Shown in pieces: positions 22,126-63,624 of a stretch of DNA of 64,000 bases. The notes beneath the pieces were generated by a model. That model saw nothing but the letters and a program-made list of their open reading frames with translations, searched no databases and was not told the DNA's origin. Source of the stretch: Heterostelium multicystogenum (lineage: Eukaryota > Evosea > Eumycetozoa > Acytosteliales > Acytosteliaceae); the NCBI GenBank assembly GCA_003667245.1, contig RCNN01000076.1:1-64000 (forward strand), read 5' to 3'. Position 1 is the first letter of the stretch, and the number at the start of each line of letters is the position of its first letter. Position numbers and translations under genes: made by a program.

Positions 22126-24082
22126 ATGGCAGATTTTTGTGGATATCCCAATTTACTCAGTGCTTTATTTCCTAAAGTCATGTTAACAGAATCATTTTCA
22201 CTTCCAACTCTTTTTCAATGGGCAAATAAAACAATTGGACATTCTAAAAACAGCATCAACAACAGCAGTAATAATAAAAATAATATAGATCAAAATATAG
22301 AGGAAATTTCCTGCCAACCTTTAGCATCAAATTCACCTAGAGAAAAGAAACTAAAGAAATCCCACAAATCATCGACTAGCACTTCATACTTTTTGGATAG
22401 AATGATTGTTGACTCACCAACACTTGCATCGAGCAGTTCCTATCCATGTGACATAAATTACGATCCCCTCGATTTGAATGAAGATGGATACATTTCACCA
22501 TCGTCTCTTAAGATGATGTTTGAGCAGCATCATCAGCAACAGCAACAATTAATTTACAATAGTCTCAATAGTATCAGCAGCGGCAACAACAATGACAATT
22601 TCACATCGGACAATCAATACTCTCCACAACAAAAATCAAAACACAGTTTATCGCCATTTTGCTTTTTGAAATCGAATTCAAAGAAGGCTTCCAACTTTGG
22701 CAAGCGATTTGGCAACAAGAAATATATAGTATTGGAGGATTTGCCAATTGAAGTGATCATCCATATTTTAGGATATCTGCCGTTCAGAGACATTGGATAC
22801 ACCCTCCCTTTGGTCAACAAGAATTTCCGAGATATATCCAGTGTTTTTGTTTTGTGGAAAAATCTTTACTTAAAGTATTGGTCGAAGAAGAATACAAAGA
22901 GAAGCTTTAATTTTCACAATGTCCATGGCTATATTCCACCTTCAAATAATATTTTGAATTCACCGGGTCTCACTTCCAACCCCAATAAATTATGCTCCAA
23001 CAAAAACTACAAGAAGATGTACCAAATGAGACACATTGTCGAGAAAAACTGGAAGAAAGGAGTTTGTTCTGTTCAAACCCTATACGGACACCAAGAAGGT
23101 GTTTGGGGTGTTCAATTCCATGGAGACACCTTGGTCAGCGGTGCAGAAGACGGTGTAATGAAGGTCTGGGACACCAAAGAAGGTGAATGCACTCATACTC
23201 TTGTTGGTCACACAGATGTTATTAATTCATTCCACTTTGAAAATGACCGCGTTGTCAGTGGTAGTGATGACTCAACGCTCAAAGTATGGAAAGCAAGCAC
23301 CGGACAATGTATCAACACCTTTACTGGACATGTAGGATCGGTGTGGATGCTAGAGTTTAAGGATCATTTCTTAGTAAGTGGTGGAGATGATCGCTCGGTT
23401 CGTTTATGGGATTTTGCATACTGGTCAGCAGATTCAATCGCATACTGGTCATACCGGAAGAATATATTATGTCCAAATGGGAGACAATATGATTGTAAGT
23501 GGTGCACAGGACAAGTCTTGTAGAATTTGGGATGTACGTTCTGGAAAACCATCGCACACAATGGTTTCTAACTCACCAGTTCACTGTCTTCAAATGAATG
23601 GAGATCTTTGGAGTGGGGGTGATTGGTCAGTTGCTAGCGGCCATAACAATGGAACTATAAGTGTTTGGAATATGAGAACTGGTTCATTACAAGCTGTTCT
23701 CTCAAGTCCTCTGTGTTGTCCAGTCTGGCACATTCAATTCAGACAAAATACAATATACACATCCAGTTGCAATAATTTACATGCTTGGAATCTCAATATG
23801 GCCCTTCCAACCAACCCTAATCAAATGAGTCAATTGACTTGTAGTAAAATTTTTAAAGGTCATACCAAATCGATTAAACATTTCCAAGTAAAGGAGAACA
23901 GAATGGTTAGTGGTGGAATGGACAACAAAATCAAGGTTTGGGACCTCGAAAAACCTGGAAGCAGTTATCTCTATACTTTGGCAGGTCATACTGGAAGTGT
24001 GGACTGGTTAGAGTTTAAAAAAGATAAGTTGATCAGTTGTTCTGCTGATCATACTATAAGAGTATGGAGCTTCTGGGACTAA
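22126..24082 (+). CDS. F-box/WD40 protein (SCF ubiquitin-ligase substrate receptor)
   Basis: Substrate-recognition subunit of an SCF-type ubiquitin ligase, about 651 residues in one exon from ATG 22126. The first 200 residues are low complexity (Asn, Ser, Gln). An F-box follows at about 203-250 (VLEDLPIEVIIHILGYLPFRDI...), which would bind Skp1. Residues about 318-651 form WD40 repeats with eight recognisable blade ends (MKVWD, LKVWK, VRLWD, CRIWD, ISVWN, LHAWN, IKVWD, IRVWS). Eight blades after an F-box is the Fbw7/Cdc4 layout. D. discoideum FbxA has the same type but is much larger. The frame breaks in the T4 run at 23412-23415; T3 restores LWDLHTGQQI. Substrate is unknown. Confidence 0.85.
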
Positions 24083-34165: not shown

Positions 34166-37100
34166 CTAGAGAAAAAATCTGACGGGAGGTCCTTTGGTAT
34201 CCTCACCACTATCCGAAAACAAAACGAAAAGGTCAATGTATTGTTTTGTATCTGTATCTTCTAATAGCTGCTTCAATCTATAGATAGAAAGATAGATAGA
34301 TATATGAAGTGATGGAGTGAGTATATGATTAAGTCTGGTTTGAATTTAAATCAAGATGACACTTACTGCATTGATAGTCTCTTTCTGTGGAATGGTAAAG
34401 CAGCCATAAATACCATGGATGTATTCTGATAAATACCTGAGACCTTCAATCCATATTTGTCATTGAAACTAGATAGATTATAGGAGTAGTAATCATTGTT
34501 AGATCAAGTTTGTATCATCGAATATTACTGTGGAGCAAACAAAACTTACTATTGAATAAATTCTTCAACGGTTATCTCTGGTACTTTGATTTCCCATTTA
34601 TCCCAGAGGGTTACGGAGCAGGTGTTGGTAATTCTTATTTTTGGTGCAACACCTGGTTCGCAGACTGAGAAGTAAGGGAGCGCCAAGTTGAGGAAACAAT
34701 TGTTGTAGACTTCCAATGGTTGAAGTTTGGAGACAACTTTGATTAGCTCTAATGCGACCAATCCTGATACGACACTGGTGGTAGTGGCGATGGCAGGAAT
34801 GATCTTACCAGCAATCAACTTTACCTTGTATCGGTCGGATTCCTCAATCTTATATACACGTGCACGCATATTAGCACACGCAGTTATAAAGTCGATATGA
34901 TGATTGGCATCGTTGTCTTTTTCAAAATCCTGTGCGTTCAGCGGTGCAAGGCTGTGTTCCGCTTTCATTTTGATGAGCTGTTGTTCGAGAGTCTTTGTCA
35001 GCTCAATAAACTGGTCGTACGAGAATGTCTCTACTGGAGCAGCAGCCTTTTCATCAGAGATGATAACCTTGTTCTTTGATTTGAATTCCGGTACTACTAT
35101 TTGGTCACAATATGAATAAGCATGTTGTCGGCAATCCTTTGGCAAAGAAATATTGAAATATTTGCCCATAAAGTTGCAGTTTCCACTAAGAAATCCAAAT
35201 GAGAAGCATCATCCTTATTGAAATTGATCAGGGTGGGTGGTCTTTTTGGTAGTGTCCAAAATGGAACTCCTTCTTTTGATTTCATATCCAAAGGATAGGC
35301 CTTAAGCAACTGCAATACATTATGGTTATAAAGCTTTTCAAACTTGATCCTGGCATATTTGACACAGTCCTCAAAGGATTGGGGATATTGTGACATCAAC
35401 TTTGATAATGATTTACAAATAGCAATCTTATTATTTACTTGTGAATTTAATAGTTTCTAAAAGTAGTCGGGCGATCGTTAGTATGTTACGTTGTACAACT
35501 GCCTCTGTATCACACATATAGTTACATTAATATAATCTGGTTCATGGATGAATTTGTCGAGTTCAGATGGGTTGATGCAGAAGAGCTTTTCAAATTTGTC
35601 TCTTGACCACTGGATACAATGATCGATGGTCGATGGGAAAGATTTCAATGTACAGAATGGAGTTTGTTTTTCATTTGGATCCTTGGTGGAGGAGTATGAT
35701 TCGGTCAGGTCTGGAATGATGACTTGAGTGTGTCCTTTGGTACCAAGTGTACCTGATTCTAAAAGTGGCTTGCGGTTTGCCACGCATTTTGTGTCGACGT
35801 AGATACGTGCCTCAACGTTATCGAGTGCACTTACAATGATATCTTGCTTCTCATAGAATTGACTGGTATATATATGCTCAGAGTTGGCATCAAGTTTATC
35901 TTGACGATGATCAACTCTCAGCGATGGATTCATGACTTTTGCAGCTAGGGCTGCAGTCTTTGATTTTGGACTGTTGATATCATGGTTTCTAAAGAGGAAT
36001 TGACGATTCAGGTTTGACTTTTTCAATGAGATCGTTATCGGTGATTGTCACCATTCCATCGTCTCCACATGCAACACCCAAGAGAGCGTAGTTCTTGAGC
36101 ATCTCACAGCCAATGGCACCTGATCCAATCATAAATAGTTTGGTGTTCTCAAGTGTCTTGCATTTCGATAAACCAAGTGCCAAAAGCTGCGATTGAGAAC
36201 GTTTTGATTTGAGTTCTCCGGTTTGCACAAAGTCCACTCCTACTTGCTGCTCATTGATAGATTCCTCGTCCTTATTATACAATTCAAAAGCATCAATATA
36301 CAACCACTGCTTGAGTGGCGAGAATTTACCTGTCATTGACTTTAGACATTCTTGTGCTGTAAAACCACCAATAATTGAAACCAAAGGGCAGATACTACCG
36401 CGCGATGTCATTGCCGCCATCTTGATAATGTTAAAATCTACCTCGGTAACAGTCGAGAGCTTGTTATTAATTTGACATGCGAGGTCATACATGGACTTGG
36501 CGTCGTTTTGATCCCAGGATTTTGGCAAACAACCAAACTTTTCTTTAAACTGAGAGAGTGCCAGTCTTGCTAAATGTCTTTGTCCATTGTCTTTCAATAG
36601 GTTGAAATCTAAATATTCCGGTGATCCAATCGAGTCACTCAATGATTTCTATTATGTTGTTAGTCATCAAAGTCTAATGTAGCCCACAGATTGTGTAACA
36701 TACGAAATTAAAGGTCACAGGTTGCTTGACGTCAGAGATGATACCTCCACGTGTGTATTGAGAGTAGCTGGTAGTGTCGCACTCGATGGCGAAAGAATAG
36801 GGTTGATCACATCGACTTTGTAGGTTTGGTCGTTCAACTCTACCATTCCTTGAATCTCGCGGAATTTAACGAGATCACCCGACTCAAGGCCATGCATTTG
36901 CCCTTCCATGCAGGTGACAATTGCTGGAGATGCATTGGAAATCGATGAGATGAATGTTTCTTTCAAGTCCTCTCCATTCTTATCGTAGACTGTGAATTGT
37001 GCGCCGAAATCGGCGAATACCCAACCGAGCAAACCTGAGGTGTCAGCTGAGAGGAATGCAATGTCATGTTCACGACAGAACTGGTTGATCTGAATCTGCA

Positions 37101-37674
37101 GTGATAGTTCACAGTCGGTGAGAATGATGCACTTGAACTTTGAGAGTCTCTGCACGTCTTGAAGCAGAGGCGAATTAGACCAGCTGTAGACCTTCACATA
37201 AGGATTCAGCTCTGCAATCTTGGGCAGTGTGTATTCCGCTCTGTTGATGTTTGTTTGATCGGTAGATACATCATTAACATCGATGTAGAATTGAGTGGAG
37301 AGATCAAGGTTTGAGATGTTCTGTTGGTCGTGGATGGTCAATGATTTGACACCGGCCAAAACCAAGTTCTTGGCAATTTCCAAACCAACACCGCCTACTC
37401 CACTGAGGAGCACATCACCCTTGGACAGACGCGACATTGCAAAATCGCCTAAGACATATCTCTGTCTACTGTAGAGAGTGTCGTCCAATGAGTAGTCTCT
37501 ATATTTCAGCAGATCATTCATTCCCGATGCAACCATCGGTGTCGATGCAGAGCTGTTTTCCATTTGGTTATTTGATGGTGTCGAAGTAGTAGAAGACATG
37601 GATGGTGAAGGATTTGGCGTCGATGAAGTTGAAGTAGAAGATGATGAAGAAGTTGCAATCATTTCAACATCCAT
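34166..37674 (-). CDS. uba1: ubiquitin-activating enzyme E1 (UBA1)
   Basis: E1 enzyme that adenylates ubiquitin and passes it to E2s. Exons on the minus strand: 37674-36704, 36648-35439, 35399-34550, 34468-34367 and 34277-34166. A Ser/Thr-rich extension of about 55 residues precedes the inactive adenylation domain (GVGGVGLEIAKNLVLAGVKS). The active adenylation domain has GSGAIGCEMLKNYALLG, ITDNDLIEKSNLNRQF and SALDNVEARIYVD. The catalytic Cys is in TPFCTLKSFP (codon about 35654-35652). The C-terminal ubiquitin-fold domain ends DSGEDTKGPPVRFFL. Frames break near 36780, in the T5 run at 36019-36023, near 35515 and near 35155. The apparent 39-nt intron at 35438-35400 is unusually short and its phase is uncertain. 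The DRAM-like gene lies downstream on the same strand. Confidence 0.92.
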
Positions 37675-38582
37675 GGTGAATGAAAAATGGCAATGGCAAT
37701 GGCAAGGCAATGACAATGACAATGAAGATGTATCAATCAATCAATCAATCAACCAATGAACGAGCTAATGTTTTAACTTTATACTCTGATATTTATAACT
37801 GTACAAGTGTTTGTTACCAATATAATGTATAATTTTAAAGATATATAATAGATATATATATTTATATGATCTTATAAATTAATATTATTATGATCACAAT
37901 ACAGTTGATCAGCATATCCACCACAACCTAACCTTTAATTTTAAACACCATTTTTATTATTAAATTTTTATTTATTTACTCTGTGTGTGGTATGTGGGGT
38001 GATAAGGACCCAACAAATCATTTCCAATTTTATTCTTAGAATACTTTTTTATTAAAATAGAACAGCATCTGATTGTCTCAAATAAACAATATTGATTAAT
38101 AATATCGCCAACATCTGCGAGTGATAATATATATATTGGAATTTCACTGATACAGGGATTGTCCATCATATAAGAACAATTATTAATTTTAGGTTGTTAT
38201 TTGATTCAACCAAAATACAGATAGCTGGTTTGTGGATTTATTATGAAATCAATCATAATTGAACTCTGAGGCTAATATATTGATATTCCAGATCTCAAAA
38301 AGGGAATTTTAAAGTTTAGGAAAACTTTATATCTACATGATGAGAGATAAATGTAATTCTTTTTACAGAAATTACTTTCCCTTATTGGGAAGTTAATTGA
38401 ATTGAAATTCAAAAATAGACCATTATCATTATTAAAGTGAACATTAAATTAGAGAACAAAAAGATTGATGGGATCTTTTACCTAATCAACAATCCAACAT
38501 AAACAGCTCCACAACATTTAATAAATAATTTTGGATGTTTTTAATTGATGTTTAATCGGTTGTGACTCACCAAAATTGATTG

Positions 38583-42941: not shown

Positions 42942-45900
42942 TTATTTTCTTAATCCAAATAAACTATTGAAAACATCTGATTTCTTTTCTGGTGACGATA
43001 CTTTGGTAATGTTGGGTGGTGGTGATGGCGGTTGGGTGTTATTGCTGCTTGGGGCCACGACTGGCTGGAATCCAGAATCATCCCCACCGAAATATAGTGA
43101 TTGATAGTATAAACAGAGTTCTTCTTCGAATGGCATCTGTAGTTTGACTGATTTTTCTTTTGCTTCTTTAATTTGCTCTTCGTGATCTGTCGATGGATCC
43201 TTGCCAGAGAGAATTGCAACTACCACCTTGAGGAGCATGGTACGTGGCTGTCCAATGGTAAAGATCTCTGAGAACTTTTCGAGCAGAGCAAGAGCATCGT
43301 TGATTTCACTTAGTACCTTGGAGCGGTTGTTGTTGAGTGAGTTTTGCATTAGTTTAATGAGAATGAGTGGAATCGAAGCATAGGCTTCGAAAGTAGTGAA
43401 ATTGTTTGGCTCACCACGCATCAAAATTGCGTAGGTACGTTTGCAGTATTCATATGCTGTGGATGGATCATTGAGCTGAAGTGATAGCAGTGCCTTTAGG
43501 ATGTTGAAATTCACTTGATAGCTGAGCGACACCTCGGCAGCTCCTATTGAGTTAAATAGCGATTCAATCTCATTGAGTTTGCCTGTGGTAACAGTCAGCT
43601 CACCAAGACGATAATGACTGAATGCAGTAGTTAGAAGGGCCATGATTTGGAGTTGAATATCACCTCGAATACGTGAGCTTTCCAGAGCTTTCTGGGATAA
43701 ATTGACAGCTTGTCGCCATTGTCCCATATAGTAGAGACACATAGCCAACAGGATACTTGATTCCTCCATCATCTTCTTGTCACCAACTTTTCCCGCTGAC
43801 TCTGATGAGATTTGGAATCCAGATTCAGCTTCTGTCCATCTACCGAGTCCAGACATGTAGATACCCCATGATTGATGCGAATTTCCATAGACATATCCAT
43901 TGGTCTCATCTGATCTGGCGAGAATCTCAGCATAGTACTTGAGTGGAGTAGCATGATTTCCGTTGGAACCAAGGACACGTATTCCTATGGAAAATGCCTC
44001 GCTTTGTAGATTCCAGCTCTCAGTTGCGAGCTGAGATGCAACAAATGCACACCATGATGAGGCCTGCTTGGCACAGTCGTGGAAGAAAATCTTAGAGAGC
44101 AGAAACAAGACATAAGATTGCTTCTCTCTTTTCAAATGAGTCGAGGGTTGAGGTAAAGAATTTGGTTAGAGAGTCTTGGCGAGTAACCTTAGGGAGACGC
44201 ACCAATTTACGAGCACCTGAGGGAGCGGGCTGTGGGTTGTTCTGGTTTGGTGGCATTTCTATTCCTAGATGTTTTGAGTGCAGTGAGGAAATGGAGAGAG
44301 GCAGATTGTAGTGCACCCATATTATAGAGGGCAAGTCCAAGTTTTCGGGATATGGAGACTGCTTCCAAAGTTGTCTTCTTTGGATTGGGTGTTGAAGTTG
44401 GTGAACCAGAGGCTGTAGGCGTTGGGAAATTTGAGGTGGAAACACTTCTTCGATGTAGTTTCTTTGGATTGATTTTCTTGCTATCTTCCTCGACCTGCGG
44501 TGAGTCCGTTTGAGAATTGGATATTTCATCAAGACATTTCAATGCCAATTGAAAGAATCGTACTGCCTCTTTGTTGTTGTTGTCAGAGAGTGCAATACCA
44601 CCTGCTTTACTGGCATATTCTACTGTCTTGACATTGTCTTGTGCTTGATGATAATGATGAACGAGTGCTACAAACAGGGAGTGTTGTGGGGTGTTGGTTA
44701 GCTCCATGATATTGGCAATCTTATGGTGGAGCTCACGACGTTGTGAGAACAACATTAAATCGTAGACGACCTCCTGTGTACGAGTATGCTGGAATGAGTA
44801 GATCAACTCTCCATTTGGCGGAGTTGAACGCGATCGTATGAAGTGAAGCTTTCAAGTATTTGCAAGTCGAGAAGCAAGTCTTCTTTGGTAGTAGACTCAC
44901 TTGGTAGGATACGATAGAGATTCTCGCATGTGAAAGGCGTTCCAATGACAGATGCAACCTTCAACTCGAGTTGCTGGGCATTTGAAAGACGATCGATTCT
45001 GCTTGTGATCAAGGAAGTTACAGTTCGAGGAAGTGATACACGGATATGCTCAATTGCTTCGAGTTTCGAGTTGAAACGCAATGTTGCTTCGTCAAAGAGG
45101 TTGGCTGCACGAAGTCCACTAAGCATTTCTTCAATTACAAAATGATTTCCCTGTGATCTGTTGAATATCTCCTCAACAATCTCATCGGGTACACTCTCTG
45201 AATTTAGCATCTGGTTAATCAACTGTGCAGTTTCCTCTTTGGTGCCAAGTGGCTCAAGTTGGATCATTTGAATGCCAGTCAGATTGGTGAATCCAAAAGG
45301 CAATCCTTCCTTCATTGGACGCAATGCGACGACAATCAGATGATTCTCAAGCTGGTGGCAGAGGTTAAGGGTGAGTGTCCAACTTGCACTATCCATATGG
45401 TGTGCATCATCGATGACAATAACAGTTTTTCTTGGGATGAGCATTTGTACGAGACGAAGCATCAGCATTTGTTGGGTTTCAGCACGCTGTGGAGCGGAAT
45501 ATCGACGATTAACTGGTGGTGGATTCACTTTAATGTCTAAAATGGGATTAAGGAGTCCTACATGTGGGCCGAGTTCAAGGAGATTCTTGTATTCTTGGGC
45601 TTCTGATTCTTTCAGTGGTTCGGCGAGTAATTGCTTCCATATGTAGAAGGGAATAGACTCATTCATCTGTACTCCAGTGGCTTTAACAACCTTGAGTCCA
45701 TGACAGTAGGTATATTTGATCTCAGAAATGAATCTAGATTTTCCAAGTCCTGCCTCGGCCTCAATAATCACAACCTGTGTTCCATAACCGTTACGGACAA
45801 GATCAATCATACTGGCGACTTGTTTCAACTGTGGTTGGCGACCAATGATAGCGCGATTTCTCACAGGATGGTTTCTTGGTGATTGGTGATCCAGTGTATA

Positions 45901-48900
45901 CTTTTTTGATTGGCTTGAACACTGGAATTGGAGCTGCTTTACCTTTCACTTTAATTGGATCACTGAGACGAACAAACTCAATGTTCTTTGCATTCTTTGA
46001 GGTCTCTTCGCAGCAGAGTACACCACCCTGACTGTGGCTCATCAGACGTGCAGATAAATTGACCATGTCTCCGACTACAGCATACTCACGACGCTCATCG
46101 CTACCAACATCACCACAGAAGCACTTTCCAGTGGTAACTCCAACCGTAGAAATTACGGTCAGCTTGAAGAGCGATACAACAATCTCCATGGCTGCTTCCA
46201 CAGCACGTGAGGGATCGTCTTCGTGACTGTATGGCGGAACTCCCCAGCATGCAATGAGCACACAACCCTTATCATCAATCATAAATTGACGTACCGTACC
46301 TTCGTATTTGTAGACAATCTTTTGGATTTCGACTACAATCGATTGCAGCTTATTCAAGTCTTTGACTGGATCTGGAACTCCATAGGAAAGGTTGACAAAT
46401 ATAACGGAGATGTGACGAAGCTCGGCAAGATATTCACCATGTCCATGCTTCAGCTGATTGATGACTGCATTTGGAACGAATCTCTTCAATGAATCCTCCA
46501 TGTCCATGAGAAGTGGCAAGTCAAATAGGAACTTGCGATCCATAGAGACCAACATCTGCTCATTGTAATCTGTGGTGGGCTTTTTCTCTTTCTTATCAAG
46601 TAGCACCATAGAGTCTAGCTTGTAATTGGTCTTTCCCTTTGGTCTATTGCAGTTGGCACAGTGCTTAATCACTTCCTGACACTGTGGCGAGATGTAAATC
46701 TCACCGCTTTCTGCTTCTTTCTCACATAGGGTTGCCTGTATCAATGCTTCACCTGCAATGAGGAACTCAACCTTGGAGCTAACACCACCTACGTACAGTC
46801 CACTGATATTTCCACAACCGATACCAATGTGTAGAGTAAGGAATCCACCTGGAACAGGGAAGTTATGGAGCTTACGTTGCAAAGAGAGTGCACACTCACA
46901 TGCGATACGAACACGATTGGTCACATCACCATGTGTAGGCCAATGTGTCAAGACGGCATCACCTGCGAACTTGACGATATCTCCTCCATATCCCTTGACA
47001 ACCTTGATCAAAATTTCGAAATATCTATTCAAATTCCTGGTCAATAGCTCAACACCTTCCTGTCCATGTCCACCAAGTCTTTCGGTCAATGAAGTAAATC
47101 CAGAGATATCAGCAAACAAAACACATGATGAATAGCTAGATTAAATAAGGAAATGGAGAGGTTAGCGAAAGTTGGTATCAAGAGTCTCTGGATGGATAGT
47201 TACTTTTCGATATGAGGTGGTTGAATTGGATCCGCCGATGCTAACAATCCCTTGATAACAAGGTTGGATACATAGGATCCGAGACTATTGATTTGGAGAC
47301 GTTCTTTGTCGTCCGATGGAAGCTTGTCCTGTCTATCCTGATGCGTTGAACCTTCTAGCCAGAATTGATTGAAACTGTTACGCTGTTTCTGGTCGTCGGT
47401 TTGCTTGATGGTTTTCAAGTGCTTGGAGAAAACCGACATCTTGAATGGTTTTGTTTTCTTTCCAGAGGTTTGTTGTGTTGGAAGCTGGCTATTTGTAATG
47501 GCTGTGATAGAGCTGGGATTGATGACAGTGGGTGGGCCTGTTGTAGTGGTGGTAGTTGTAGTATTGTTTGCTGTTGTTGTGGTAGTTGTTGTGGTTGATG
47601 TTGCGGTCAACGATTTCGTTGGTGAGAGTGCCATTTCATTGGATGGGCTGCCTGAGGTATCTGTGATGATCAAAGTAGTTGTAGTGGTAGTTGAGCTTGG
47701 AGATGTTGGTGCATTGTCCTTGGTAATCAAAGTCAATGTAGTTGTAGTATGCTGCTTTTCATCTGATTCTGTCAATGATTTAGCCTGGATAATAGACTCC
47801 ATTGATGGCGATGGCACAATTGCGAATGCCCTTGATGTCCTCACTGTATTAGTGAATGGTACTGATGTTTCATCAAAAGTGGCTTCAGTAGTGGTGCTGC
47901 TGCTGCTGTTGACGCTGTTGGTTGGCGGAGACATAGCCATTGCATTTAGTGCAGCAATTAAATCTGTTGATGAAGTTGATTGTTGCTTTGGAATGGAGGA
48001 AATGGGCAATGGTGGTGTTGGATGTCTTTGCACATGCACTGTTGGCTGCTGCTCATCATCTGAGAAAACTAACGAGTGTTGGTTCAATGATAAATTACTG
48101 CTGCTTTCGATAAAAGATGTATCTGTAGATAAAAATGAATTATCTGTATCGGTTTGGTTTGGAGTTAATGATATTTGATTAGCGTTCCTGTGGCTACCCT
48201 TAACATTAGGTATATCAATATTTGGTGATGCTATATGTTGGTATTGTTGTTGTTGTTGCTCTTGTACTTGTACTTGTTCAGTTTGTTGCTGTTGTTCTTC
48301 TGTTGCGGGTGATGATAATACTGTCGAACCATTGGCATCAGTGCTATTATTGCTACTGCTGATCTCATTGCTACTGCTTGTTGGCTCAGTAGTAGTCGTT
48401 GTTGTTGTTGTGATAGTTGATTCGTTCGATGCTCTTGGTGTGATTTCAGTGCTGACTATTGTTGAAGTACCGGTGGATTCATTTCTAGTGATAGTAAGGC
48501 TTTGCTTTTGAACAGGTTTACCCATGAATGAGTTGAGTAGTATAGTTTTCATAGTTGTAGACCTGCTTTCATTCTTTCCACTTGATTTTGATAGCTTTGG
48601 TGATTTAATAGGTGTTGGAATTGCTGCTTGTGAATTAGCTGTCGATGTAGCAGCAATTTGATCTAAATCAAACAACGACAGTAAGTCAATGGCTGAACTC
48701 AATCACTCGAATCATTGTATTACACTTACCTTTTACAGAGAATGTTAAATGTGTAAATATATTGATACATTGGTTCACTTTTTCAACCAATTCCTGTAGG
48801 TATGACATGAAGATGGTTAGTAACGTCGCTGACATATTATTTATAATCAATGGTAATAACCTACGGAAGTTGAATGTAAAACAATAAGAGATTGTAAGCT

Positions 48901-59218: not shown

Positions 59219-59820
59219 AACAAATGACATTTCAACCATAAGAAACTCAAGAAATAAGATTGAGAACTGTAATTACACATCAACCTATCAATCAATAAAC
59301 AGCAACAACAATCGCACAACAACAGTAACAACCAATAACCAATGCAATTCATTTTCATGCCATGGCATGATTAATTAATCCGATGACTGACAGTAGTCAC
59401 CCATTATTATAATTCTCAAACAGTAATGAATTTTTTAATTTTCCCTCTTTTTTTATTTTTATTTTGATCCAACAACGACACACGGTTCCAAAAACTAAAA
59501 ATTCAATTTTGGAATCTTGATTGATGTCAATCACAAATTTGTTTAATTTGACACAAATAGATAGATAATTAGTATTTACATAGTTATATATATATATATC
59601 CAGATTTAATATTATTATTACATACATTAGCACAATTCATTTGGAAATTAAAGTGAAATTAAATAAATTTCGTTCAAACTTGGATAAGATTAGATTCCAA
59701 ATTTAATTTTCATTTTTTAAACTACAAATACCATTTGGGGTTAATATCAGAGTAACAACCAATAACCAACTACTAACAACAACAGCAAAAACATAAGTAT
59801 AATAATAGTAATAATTGGTG
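59219..59820. other. intergenic, kinesin promoter
   Basis: Asn/Gln-type CAA repeats at the left edge (3' end of U2SURP), then AT-rich DNA. No separate gene is visible. Confidence 0.55.
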
Positions 59821-62800
59821 ATGAATGAAGCAGCTTCTTCTTCTTCTACATCTTCTCCTTTGATTTTGGCTGCACCAACTGGTACTGCTACGACTATTAC
59901 TCTGGGTAATAATAGTTTGTATAGTAGCGCAACTTCAATGGCTTCTTCAATATCAGGTGGATCCGTTGGTATTGCTAATGGTCTAAGTGGAAGCATACTC
60001 TCTTCAAGCACACACCAGCTACAGCAACAGTCAATGTCTGCGAGTCAGAATCAATCGCAATCCAACTGCATCAGAGTGGTCTGTCGATTCAGACCACTGA
60101 CCGAGTTGGAGCAGAAACGAAACGAGCATTCGATCATACAGTTCATTGATCACCAATCATTCATTGTCAAAGTATTTATTTATCAAGCAAATCAACGTCA
60201 AACTTGACATAACATGTGTTAACGCACCTCTCTAACCATCTACTTTACTAAACTGAAGCAAAAAGACTCACAGCAGCAATACTCTTTTGACAGGACATTT
60301 CACTCGGACGAAGATCAGTCCGTTATATTTCAAGATGTTGCCATTCCTATTGTACAGGGTATGAGTCAGATGGCTAACACAGCTGATTACAGCGCGCAAT
60401 TAGAACTAACTCAACTCATATGTTTTTTTCTGTAGATTTTTTGGATGGATACAACGGAACTATTCTAGCATATGGACAGACTGCTTCTGGCAAGACTTAC
60501 ACTATCTATGGTGAGCCCTCGATGGAAGATGAGTCGCAATCAAAGAATGGACTGATTCCAAGAGTTATTGAGGAGATTTTCACTGGAATTGCCAAGATGA
60601 GACAGAAGAACAATGCGCTCGCTTTTGTACTCAAGATGAGCTGTGTCGAGCTGTATATGGAGAAGATAAACGACCTCTACAATATCAACGGCACAAACTT
60701 GCAGATTAGAGAACATCCTGAGAAGGGAATCTATGTCGAGGGTGTCAATGAAACAGTAATACAGTGTCCTGAGGACGCATTCGAATTCCTCAATATCACC
60801 AACAACAATCGTGCTGTTGCTGCCACCAAGATGAGCCAGGCAAGTTCACGTAGTCATTCGATTCTGATGATTGAGCTATCGCAGCAAAATCTTCTCGACT
60901 TGAGCTCCAAGAAGTCGAAACTATTTTTGGTGGATTTAGCTGGTAGTGAGCGTGCTTCCAAAACTGGAGCTGAGGGAGAGAGAATGGCCGAGGCAAAAAC
61001 CATCAATCAGTCACTCTCTACTCTTGGAACTGTCATCAACTCACTCACCCACGCTAATAAGACACACGTGCCATATAGAAACAGTAAGCTGACGAGAGTA
61101 CTGCAGGAGTCGCTGGGAGGTAACTCAAAGACAACTCTCATTATCGCGTGCTCTCCAAGTAACTACAACGAAAGCGAAACAGTATCCACCATTCAATTTG
61201 GACTGAGAGCAAAGAAGATTACCAATAAGCCCAAGATCAATAAGGAGATTACCGTGGTAGAGCTGAAGCAACTCTTGGAGAAAGCGAACTTTAGAATCAA
61301 GGAATTAGAGGAATTCATTGTTCTTTTACAAAATGAGATGCTTCTACAGAAACAGTTTATAGAAACGTTAGAGAAAGAAAAGCAAGAGGCGATCGATAAC
61401 CAAATAGTTTTAGGTAGCGCGAATGGAGCAATAGGAGACCAAACTGAGGATACAGCATTGTCTTTGACCTGCAATAAGAAACTTAAGAGAGAACTATCAA
61501 ACAGCTCCACTTTAAAAGTTCAAAGACTGCGAGATAGAGCATTCAAACCAATGAATTTGAAGGATTTATCAAACAATACTGTCAACAGCAGCAATGGCAA
61601 CAAAAATGGAGCGACAGAGACAAAGCCAAGCAAGATACCCTCTCTTTCGATCAAGAGTCAACAAAATGCCACCGACAATGAACAACAAAATGATACTTAT
61701 GAATATGAGAGTGGTGACGACCAACTCTCCAATAGTAACACTAGTGATGGAAGTAAGAACGAGAGCGATATCGAGGAGGATCGATTGAATATCAATGGAG
61801 CACTCGACACATCTAAGCTAGATGAAATGTTGAGCCATTCATTCCTTGTACTCAATAAGAACCAGCAACAACGACAAGAGTTCCTGCTACAGGAGAAACT
61901 ACTTCAATTAGAATTAGAGCAAGAACAAAAACCAGGATCAAGAACAAGATCCAGATCAAGATGAAGCTTCACCCCCATTATATCAACCTTCTCCACCCAT
62001 TTCACCCAGAGCACTTCCAAGACTCCAACAATCACCTCCACACTCTCTCTCCCAATTCTTTCTCAACAATGATGCTACTACCAACACTCTCAATCTCAAG
62101 AGAACAATCTTTCGACAACAACATCATCCCCGCCACAAGACAAGCACTTACCGACTCCCTCAATGAAATTATTGTTTCTCATAAACTAGAGGATAGCTTC
62201 AAACAAACAATTGCATCATCATCAACAACTACAACAACAACAACCTCAAATGTAGAAATCATTAACAATACCTCTACCTCCACATCTTCTTCTACAACTC
62301 CGACTACCTCCATCCCAACCTCACCCAAGCAACAATCTCCAATACCATTTAGACTCTCCTCCCCTTCATCCAATAAACAGACCAATCAAAATCAAATAGA
62401 TGACTCGGATGATGAATTCATGCAGTCTTCGTCATCTACACCTCCAAGAAAATCGATCAACAAAACTCAACCCAATAACCCTGCGACCTCAATCGCTCAT
62501 GGCTCTCCCAGCTCCAGCGGACAATCATCAACAAAACCAACTAAATTTAAATCAATCGTCCTATATCTATCGATAATCTTTGTCCTCCTTGCAGTAGGAG
62601 CAAACATGTATATTAATCCAGCTCAAATATCTGACAAAGACGTACTTCAAAATCACCTGTATAAGCTTGGAATTGTAAATACCGAAGATCCCCCAACACT
62701 AGATCAACTCAAGAAATACTACAAAACATCACTACTCAAATAGTAAGTTAGTCTGCGACATTATCCAAAACGATATCAAACTAACCATTATGTCCAAAGT

Positions 62801-63624
62801 CACCCAGATAAAAATATTAACTGTTTAGATTGTACTTCAAAAATACATGAGATACAAAAATCATATGACGCATTGTATCTCCACTATAGTAGTAAGTATC
62901 TTAGTTTAGATTGTCTGGAATGCTATATCACTAAACCTGGCACATGCAGATCCATCATTGTTTACTATTTTAGTTGAAAAACTACCATTCAAGATAGTTT
63001 TTTAGAAACAATAGTAATAATGTTGACTTTGACTCGATGATGAGTGAAGTTAAGCAAATTGCAAGTAGCGAATCATCGTCCTCTATAGAAAACAAGGCAC
63101 TGGATTTTGGAGTCGAAACTGTTGGAACTAAAGTCAGTCCAAACAAAGGTAGAAGAAAGATACCAAGGACCTTGAACAAGAGAAATCACTTTTCAAATCT
63201 TTGCATGAACAAAAGGAATCTGAATTGAAAAGGACAAGGAATAATCTGGAAAAGGAAAAGGAACTATTTGAGAGTAGAAAAACCCAACAGGAAACCGAAA
63301 TCAGCCAAAGACTCGCCCAAATTGAAAGCAGGGAAAATGAACTAAAACAACTGCAGGCTCAATTAGAGGCTGAAAAATCACAAATCAGTCAACATGAAAC
63401 AACTACGAACCATTAGCGACCAAACTTCATATGAAAAGCAGTCAACTGTGTCCACAAAAACATCCTCAACCACCTCGTCAAATCAACAAGAAATAATAAC
63501 AACTAACAACGACAACAACAACCAAATAATTGCGCCAAGTAAAGATCCACTTCCACTTCAATGGATCAAGAAAGTCGTTAATTGGTTCAAGAGTTTATTT
63601 GGAAGCAAAACAACAACAAATTAA
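59821..63624 (+). CDS. N-terminal kinesin motor with transmembrane segment, J domain and coiled coil
   Basis: Exons: 59821-60171, 60259-60358, 60436-62742, 62800-62891 and 62974-63624. A Ser/Thr/Gly-rich start precedes a complete kinesin-1-like motor: IRVVCRFRPLTELEQKR, P-loop GQTASGKTYT (about 60476), switch I SSRSHSI, switch II LVDLAGSE, then HVPYRNSKLTRVLQESLGG. A neck and coiled coil follow to about 61400, then an acidic/Ser/Gln-rich linker. The A5 run at 61927-61931 should be A4; a second slip lies near 62097. After correction the same frame runs on through a Thr/Ser-rich region to a membrane span (KSIVLYLSIIFVLLAVGANM, about 62554-62613). A J-domain follows (LDQLKKYYKTSLLK, then HPDKN across an intron, then KIHEIQKSYDALYLHY). 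The end is a Glu/Lys-rich coiled coil and a basic amphipathic tail. No AT-rich spacer separates motor and J domain. It could still be two genes. Confidence 0.7.

Follow-up and report, generated by a model that had tools for sequence, protein, structure and literature searches.

A gene of Heterostelium multicystogenum very likely joining a kinesin-1-type motor, a membrane span and a J domain

In Heterostelium multicystogenum, a gene at 59821-63624 very likely encodes a kinesin motor, a membrane span and a J domain in one protein. The gene lies on the forward strand of the window, by which we mean the whole stretch of 64,000 nucleotides that was analysed (contig RCNN01000076.1, positions 1 to 64,000). 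In order, the predicted product has a kinesin-1-type motor, a linker of low complexity and a single membrane span, followed by a J domain and a coiled coil.

Gene layout and colinearity with Heterostelium album

The features of the locus are collected in Table 1. Four apparent frame changes interrupt the reading, all of them after the motor: two inside the exon from 60436 to 62742, and two more inside the exon from 63006 to 63624. The first agrees with the position near 61930 given in the first-pass annotation. A second slip had been placed near 62097, but homology to an H. album protein (P0003, below) puts that frame change at about 62033-62061 instead; those near 63150 and 63396 had not been described.

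Table 1. Features of the kinesin gene (exons 59821-60171, 60259-60358, 60436 to 62742, 62800-62895 and 63006 to 63624)
Feature	Position	Strand	Basis
Exon 1: low-complexity N-terminus and motor start (IRVVCRFRP)	59821..60171	+	ATG at 59821; spliced translation; P0003 68% over 59902-60174
Exon 2 of the motor	60259..60358	+	GT-AG boundaries, frame; P0003 81% over 60250-60360
Exon 3: remaining kinesin-1-type motor, neck, short coiled coil, linker start	60436..61929	+	PF00225; solved kinesin-1 relatives; P0003 82% over 60426-61940
Linker, next frame (PPISPRALPRL...SPPHSL), open from 61918	61918..62061	+	P0003 685-746, 56%; codon score
Linker end, membrane span and first half of J domain, third frame	62033..62742	+	P0003 733-992, 54% over 62033-62740; codon score
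Membrane span (FKSIVLYLSIIFVLLAVGA)	62546..62602	+	Hydrophobicity peak 2.28
J domain per PF00226, intron-split; HPD at 62801-62809	62696..62875	+	30.3 bits, cut-off 27.8; profile comparison P 9.3e-9
Intron within the J domain, between LLK and YHPD	62743..62799	+	GTAAGT...AAAG, frame kept; the H. album model has its last codon here
Exon 4: HPD loop and helix III	62800..62895	+	Spliced translation
Probable second intron	62896..63005	+	GT-AG, frame fit; no frame scores as coding hereabouts
Post-J linker	63006..63147	+	Codon score
Coiled coil, another frame	63153..63395	+	Codon score; weak match to P0006 C-terminus
C-terminal part, with amphipathic helix (PLQWIKKVVNWFKSLFG) at the end, then stop	63397..63624	+	Codon score; hydrophobic moment 0.62

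At the level of predicted sequence, comparison with H. album PN500 shows a gene continuous from the motor into the first half of the J domain. Protein P0003 of that species (992 aa) covers this part, linker and span included, in a single chain, and is colinear with three frames of the locus (residues 157-706, 685-746 and 733-992). The middle match, at 61891-62061, starts before the open part of its frame and hence contains two TAG stops, and the codon score over 61910-62089 favours this middle linker frame. A search with the span/J region, run against 470 candidate proteins with lengths of about 635-2020 aa, gave P0003 as its sole match at E up to 0.01. The identity with P0003 starts at 94.8% (379/400) in the motor, falls to 53% (182/343) in the linker and rises again to 75% (48/64) in the span and half J domain, as expected if the tail is under selection.

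P0003 ends at SLLK, precisely where the H. multicystogenum exon stops before its intron. We infer from this coincidence that the H. album annotation ran into the stop of the intron and misses the HPD exon; the public model thus appears to break off within the J domain, at the end of an exon.

Breaks of reading frame also occur in conserved genes of the same assembly. Abutting matches in different frames, with profile positions continuing, are in our reading present at 5 of 9 Hsp70-family loci (contigs 209, 480, 511, 108 and 307, and not 212, 145, 50 or 508). The broken gene on contig 480 ends in HDEL, and by this ending is taken as the putative ER form. Within the window, the ubiquitin-activating enzyme E1 gene (34552-37740, minus strand) is broken into four ORFs, and at least one of its frame changes leaves no room for an intron, ThiF profile positions 4-57 and 57-185 falling in overlapping ORFs of different frames; the F-box/WD40 gene (22126-24079, plus strand) likewise changes frame between overlapping ORFs. 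Because conserved genes such as the Hsp70s, the HDEL form included, and ubiquitin E1 are broken in the same way, assembly error is the economical reading and the likely source of the frame changes at our locus.

A further neighbour, at 42942-48702 on the minus strand, is spread over ORFs of several frames. Scanning of two of them showed a cyclase catalytic domain with an AAA ATPase domain after it, a combination that we take to resemble soluble adenylyl cyclases.

Motor class and orthology with Kif7

The N-terminal kinesin motor, which the first-pass annotation had described as complete, is matched by PF00225 over its whole profile (354.6 bits, positions 1-327 of 327). Solved structures gave 156 matching chains, and in the top 60 of these the first 26 are all kinesin-1 motors or kinesin-1 chimaeras. 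The long coiled-coil stalk of conventional kinesin, on the other hand, was not seen on reading the translation and the hydrophobicity scan; a short coiled coil, the low-complexity linker and the span are found instead. The predicted protein is therefore filed as a Kif7-type kinesin and not as a conventional kinesin-1.

To place the motor, 7980 candidates were scored, of which 7829 passed E 1e-30 and the best 120 were listed. Ten relatives were taken as dictyostelid (P0003-P0011 and P0013), P0005 and P0006 being placed among them by the tree, while P0012, which carries a sand-fly label, was left out. In a tree built from 16 motors, only 5 of which are outgroup rows, H. multicystogenum and the ten relatives group at 100/100, and H. 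multicystogenum pairs with H. album at 100/98. Protein P0009 (1250 aa) is the only D. discoideum-named entry among the best 120 of the 7829 matches, and our locus is in turn its best match in the H. multicystogenum genome, with 364.1 bits vs 206.8 for the next; a second weak match of P0009, on contig 215 (E 2e-4), has six stops inside. Its record is titled hypothetical protein. From its length and tail make-up, which agree with what we take to be those of Kif7 (1255 residues), P0009 is presumably D. discoideum Kif7 (K7), and on the motor comparisons the H. multicystogenum gene is the predicted orthologue of this presumed Kif7.

The motor region is 58-62% identical in four Dictyostelium relatives, over 89-94% of the query region. 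The tail span also sits at a like relative place (0.71-0.80 of the length in the long-ended relatives), with a similar length after it. The D. discoideum protein differs, however, in having neither HPD nor a Pfam J domain, while that of H. multicystogenum has both. The D. purpureum model, P0013, has a long stretch ahead of the motor, from residue 1 to about 230, that is absent in the other relatives, and is perhaps two gene models fused.

Parts of this architecture are known from other systems. J proteins that cross the ER membrane once and hold their J domain in the lumen, ERdj1/DNAJC1 for example, share a cytosolic part, one span and a J domain with the present protein, but have no motor. 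A Galdieria sulphuraria protein holds a motor and a J domain in one chain, together with an AAA domain; it is a myosin, however, not a kinesin, and its description in that report mentions no span (PMC2375034). The KASH proteins nesprin-4 and UNC-83 also tie kinesin to the nuclear envelope by binding one, whereas in H. multicystogenum the motor itself would be the membrane protein (PMC11816917). Kif9 of D. discoideum is likewise a nuclear-envelope kinesin whose span lies at the C-terminus, but its motor is internal and of the kinesin-13 type, the span has about 23 residues, and no J domain is mentioned in the review's account of it (PMC11816917). We rejected Kif9 as a relative, given that our motor is kinesin-1-like and that the nearest D. 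discoideum protein is an N-terminal-motor kinesin.

Membrane span, J domain and C-terminal end

The read-through protein has one hydrophobic peak, the only one above 1.6 (mean Kyte-Doolittle 2.28), at about 62546-62602. The span proposed in the first-pass annotation thus holds, although it lies a few bases before the 62554-62613 assigned to it. A single tail span is present in 8 of the 10 relatives as well as in H. multicystogenum, the models of P0004 and P0006 being without one; P0003 has a second hydrophobic peak inside the motor. Beyond the span there are 260-321 residues in seven relatives, and 41 in the H. album model. The motif LGI follows 28-42 residues past the span start in 7 of the 9 span-bearing sequences, H. 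multicystogenum included, P0007 and P0008 being the exceptions. A membrane anchor is thus well supported, and the relatives support both the anchored architecture and its perinuclear membrane location.

Basic residues are more numerous before the span than after it in seven of the nine sequences and equal in two, a charge rule that is weak, with ties in two species. Since it favours the N-terminal side of the span, the motor would be cytosolic and the J-domain end would lie on the lumenal side, with BiP. The post-span tail of P0005 (EukProt) has 15 cysteines with CxxC-like spacing, as against 0-3 in the other seven tails counted, which is compatible with a lumenal site.

A J domain with HPD split across an intron, also claimed at first pass, is recovered by PF00226 with 30.3 bits, or 32.4 when a shorter piece is scanned, where the curated cut-off is 27.8, the match covering only profile positions 13-53 of 63. 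After splicing of the 57-base intron, HPD is intact in the loop between helices II and III, as is the basic helix II (KKYYKTSLLK). A profile of H. multicystogenum and H. album compared with six J domains of the same genome gave P 9.3e-9; ten loci had been fetched for this alignment and four were dropped for a stop within the extracted stretch.

The related kinesins give a different picture. HPD occurs in the tail of none of the ten relatives' models, a count in which P0003 stops just short of the site and P0004 and P0006 lack the span; P0004 does have an HPD, but inside the motor. The PF00226 search of related kinesins suggested in the first-pass annotation found no J domain in any of the 8 relatives scanned at full length with E up to 1 (P0004, P0005, P0007-P0011 and P0013) or of 5 tails scanned alone (E up to 10).

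A possible bridge to the J domain comes from T. lacteum, whose post-span stretch DILGIKS..PTLEELKL...DINQSYELLID is weakly J-like and can be laid in register against J domains (P 0.0026, hhalign probability 11.6%). Its AlphaFold model (mean pLDDT 43.7, pTM 0.35), of which only the post-span helices were used, places these at 851-860, 869-888 and from 893 onward with pLDDT 64-76. The H. multicystogenum and T. lacteum tails match at E 7e-4, where the best shuffle reached 3e-3 for that query and 7e-4 across nine queries, as low as the match itself; such comparisons of single tail sequences were weak. With the T. lacteum tail as query, H. multicystogenum, D. purpureum, D. discoideum and D. citrinum ranked above all 900 shuffles; with the P0005 and P. 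violaceum tails, a shuffle came first after self. By profile, group 4 tails showed no J similarity (P 0.12 with J domains, P 0.25 with H. multicystogenum); group 4 tails and T. lacteum together gave P 0.0033 and P 0.0009, respectively, at probabilities of only 10% and 23%. An ancestral J domain whose HPD was lost outside this lineage would fit best, and alternatively the J domain may be confined to the Heterostelium lineage.

The coiled coil past the J domain weakly resembles the C-terminus of P0006, at E 6e-7 by pairwise BLAST without composition correction, a level easily reached by coiled coils. The model of P0006 (EukProt) holds the motor and this weakly similar coiled coil, at residues 564-645, and has no span/J stretch, either through skipped exons or through true loss. 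The H. multicystogenum protein ends in an amphipathic helix (hydrophobic moment 0.62), a feature not kept in all relatives, with moments of 0.23 in P0005 and 0.37 in P0013.

Alternative readings and proposed function

Two neighbouring genes, one for a kinesin with its end near 61964 and another for a membrane J protein that begins at 61961 or later, would agree with the uncorrected sequence, where the frame of the motor stops at 61964 and the next long frame is opened by an ATG at 61961. We consider this arrangement highly improbable. The first-pass annotation had named orthologues encoded as two genes as the observation that would speak against a fusion; P0003 instead crosses both parts as one chain, which favours one gene, and, more widely, seven other relatives hold motor, tail span and those 260-321 residues in one protein. 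The codon score stays gene-like across the motor/linker joint, and GC in windows from 61950 to 62549 is 0.375-0.45 vs 0.205-0.225 in the upstream spacer (windows 59400-59749). Motor and tail are therefore not separated by an AT-rich spacer, in agreement with the earlier description of 61930-62560 as coding-like. Stand-alone relatives of the J/coiled-coil end (279 aa) were sought among proteins of about 153-488 aa, and 0 of 937 candidates matched at E up to 0.01, so that neither a split-off second half in H. album nor a separate J-protein ancestor was found. The span/J region has no paralogue among its matches in the H. multicystogenum genome, all three of which are the locus itself.

One gene could also be real and yet a decaying copy, its tail with the J domain no longer made. 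That all four apparent frame changes lie past the motor would agree with decay, but the same breaks affect the five Hsp70-family loci, the HDEL one among them, as well as ubiquitin E1 and the F-box/WD40 gene, and HPD, span and codon usage are intact; we regard decay as improbable. It is also rather unlikely, in our judgement, that the product is an anchored kinesin whose J domain is cytosolic or Hsp70-independent, with a structural or dimerising role and HPD as a remnant. The seven relatives that keep an anchored motor and a long end without HPD point in this direction, as do the coiled coil after the J domain and the weakness of the charge rule. The intact HPD and basic helix II speak against this reading, and so does the 75% identity to H. 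album over the span and half J domain.

Taken globally, we think it probable that the gene encodes a single-span kinesin of the ER or nuclear envelope, orthologous to Kif7, with the motor cytosolic and the J domain probably lumenal and recruiting BiP. Mechanistically, the single span would hold the kinesin-1-type motor in the ER/nuclear-envelope membrane, on its cytosolic side, and the roughly 280 post-span residues (J domain, coiled coil and amphipathic end) would most likely be lumenal. With its HPD, the J domain would then recruit and activate BiP, the Hsp70 of the lumen, at whatever site the motor moves or tethers. The genome does contain an Hsp70 gene with an HDEL end; BiP as the partner, and Hsp70 activation by the predicted J domain, are putative.

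D. discoideum Kif7 moves at 0.14 µm/s and is developmentally regulated, and kif7 nulls are described as having no vegetative defect (PMC7140473); a developmental defect is reported only under competition or overexpression challenge (PMC2396615). A 2025 study places K7 in perinuclear regions consistent with the ER-nuclear envelope system, and refers to an earlier report of K7 at a membranous perinuclear structure (PMC12676778), a location that a built-in span would explain. By term search, Kif7 is absent from a 2025 nuclear envelope review in which Kif9 is discussed (PMC11816917). No description of a protein with both a kinesin motor and a J domain was found in the literature searched, in which subscription papers are thinly covered.

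As a tentative proposal, to which we give less than even weight, a motor spanning the ER/nuclear-envelope membrane that couples cytosolic microtubule force to a lumenal Hsp70 may be ancestral in dictyostelids, several lineages having kept the anchored motor and lost HPD. The J domain would load BiP at kinesin-pulled sites, or chaperone load would regulate the motor.

Kinesins usually reach membranes via adaptors, and it is unusual for the motor to be a membrane protein in its own right. The membrane-protein kinesin of Dictyostelium discussed in the literature, so far as these sources cover it, is Kif9 (PMC11816917, PMC7140473). Should Kif7 prove to be another, there would be a simple physical reason for its location at perinuclear membranes. 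A J domain beyond the membrane, if true, would directly link the microtubule system to a lumenal chaperone, and the D. discoideum version without HPD and the H. multicystogenum version with it would form a natural pair in which to see the effect of the J domain.
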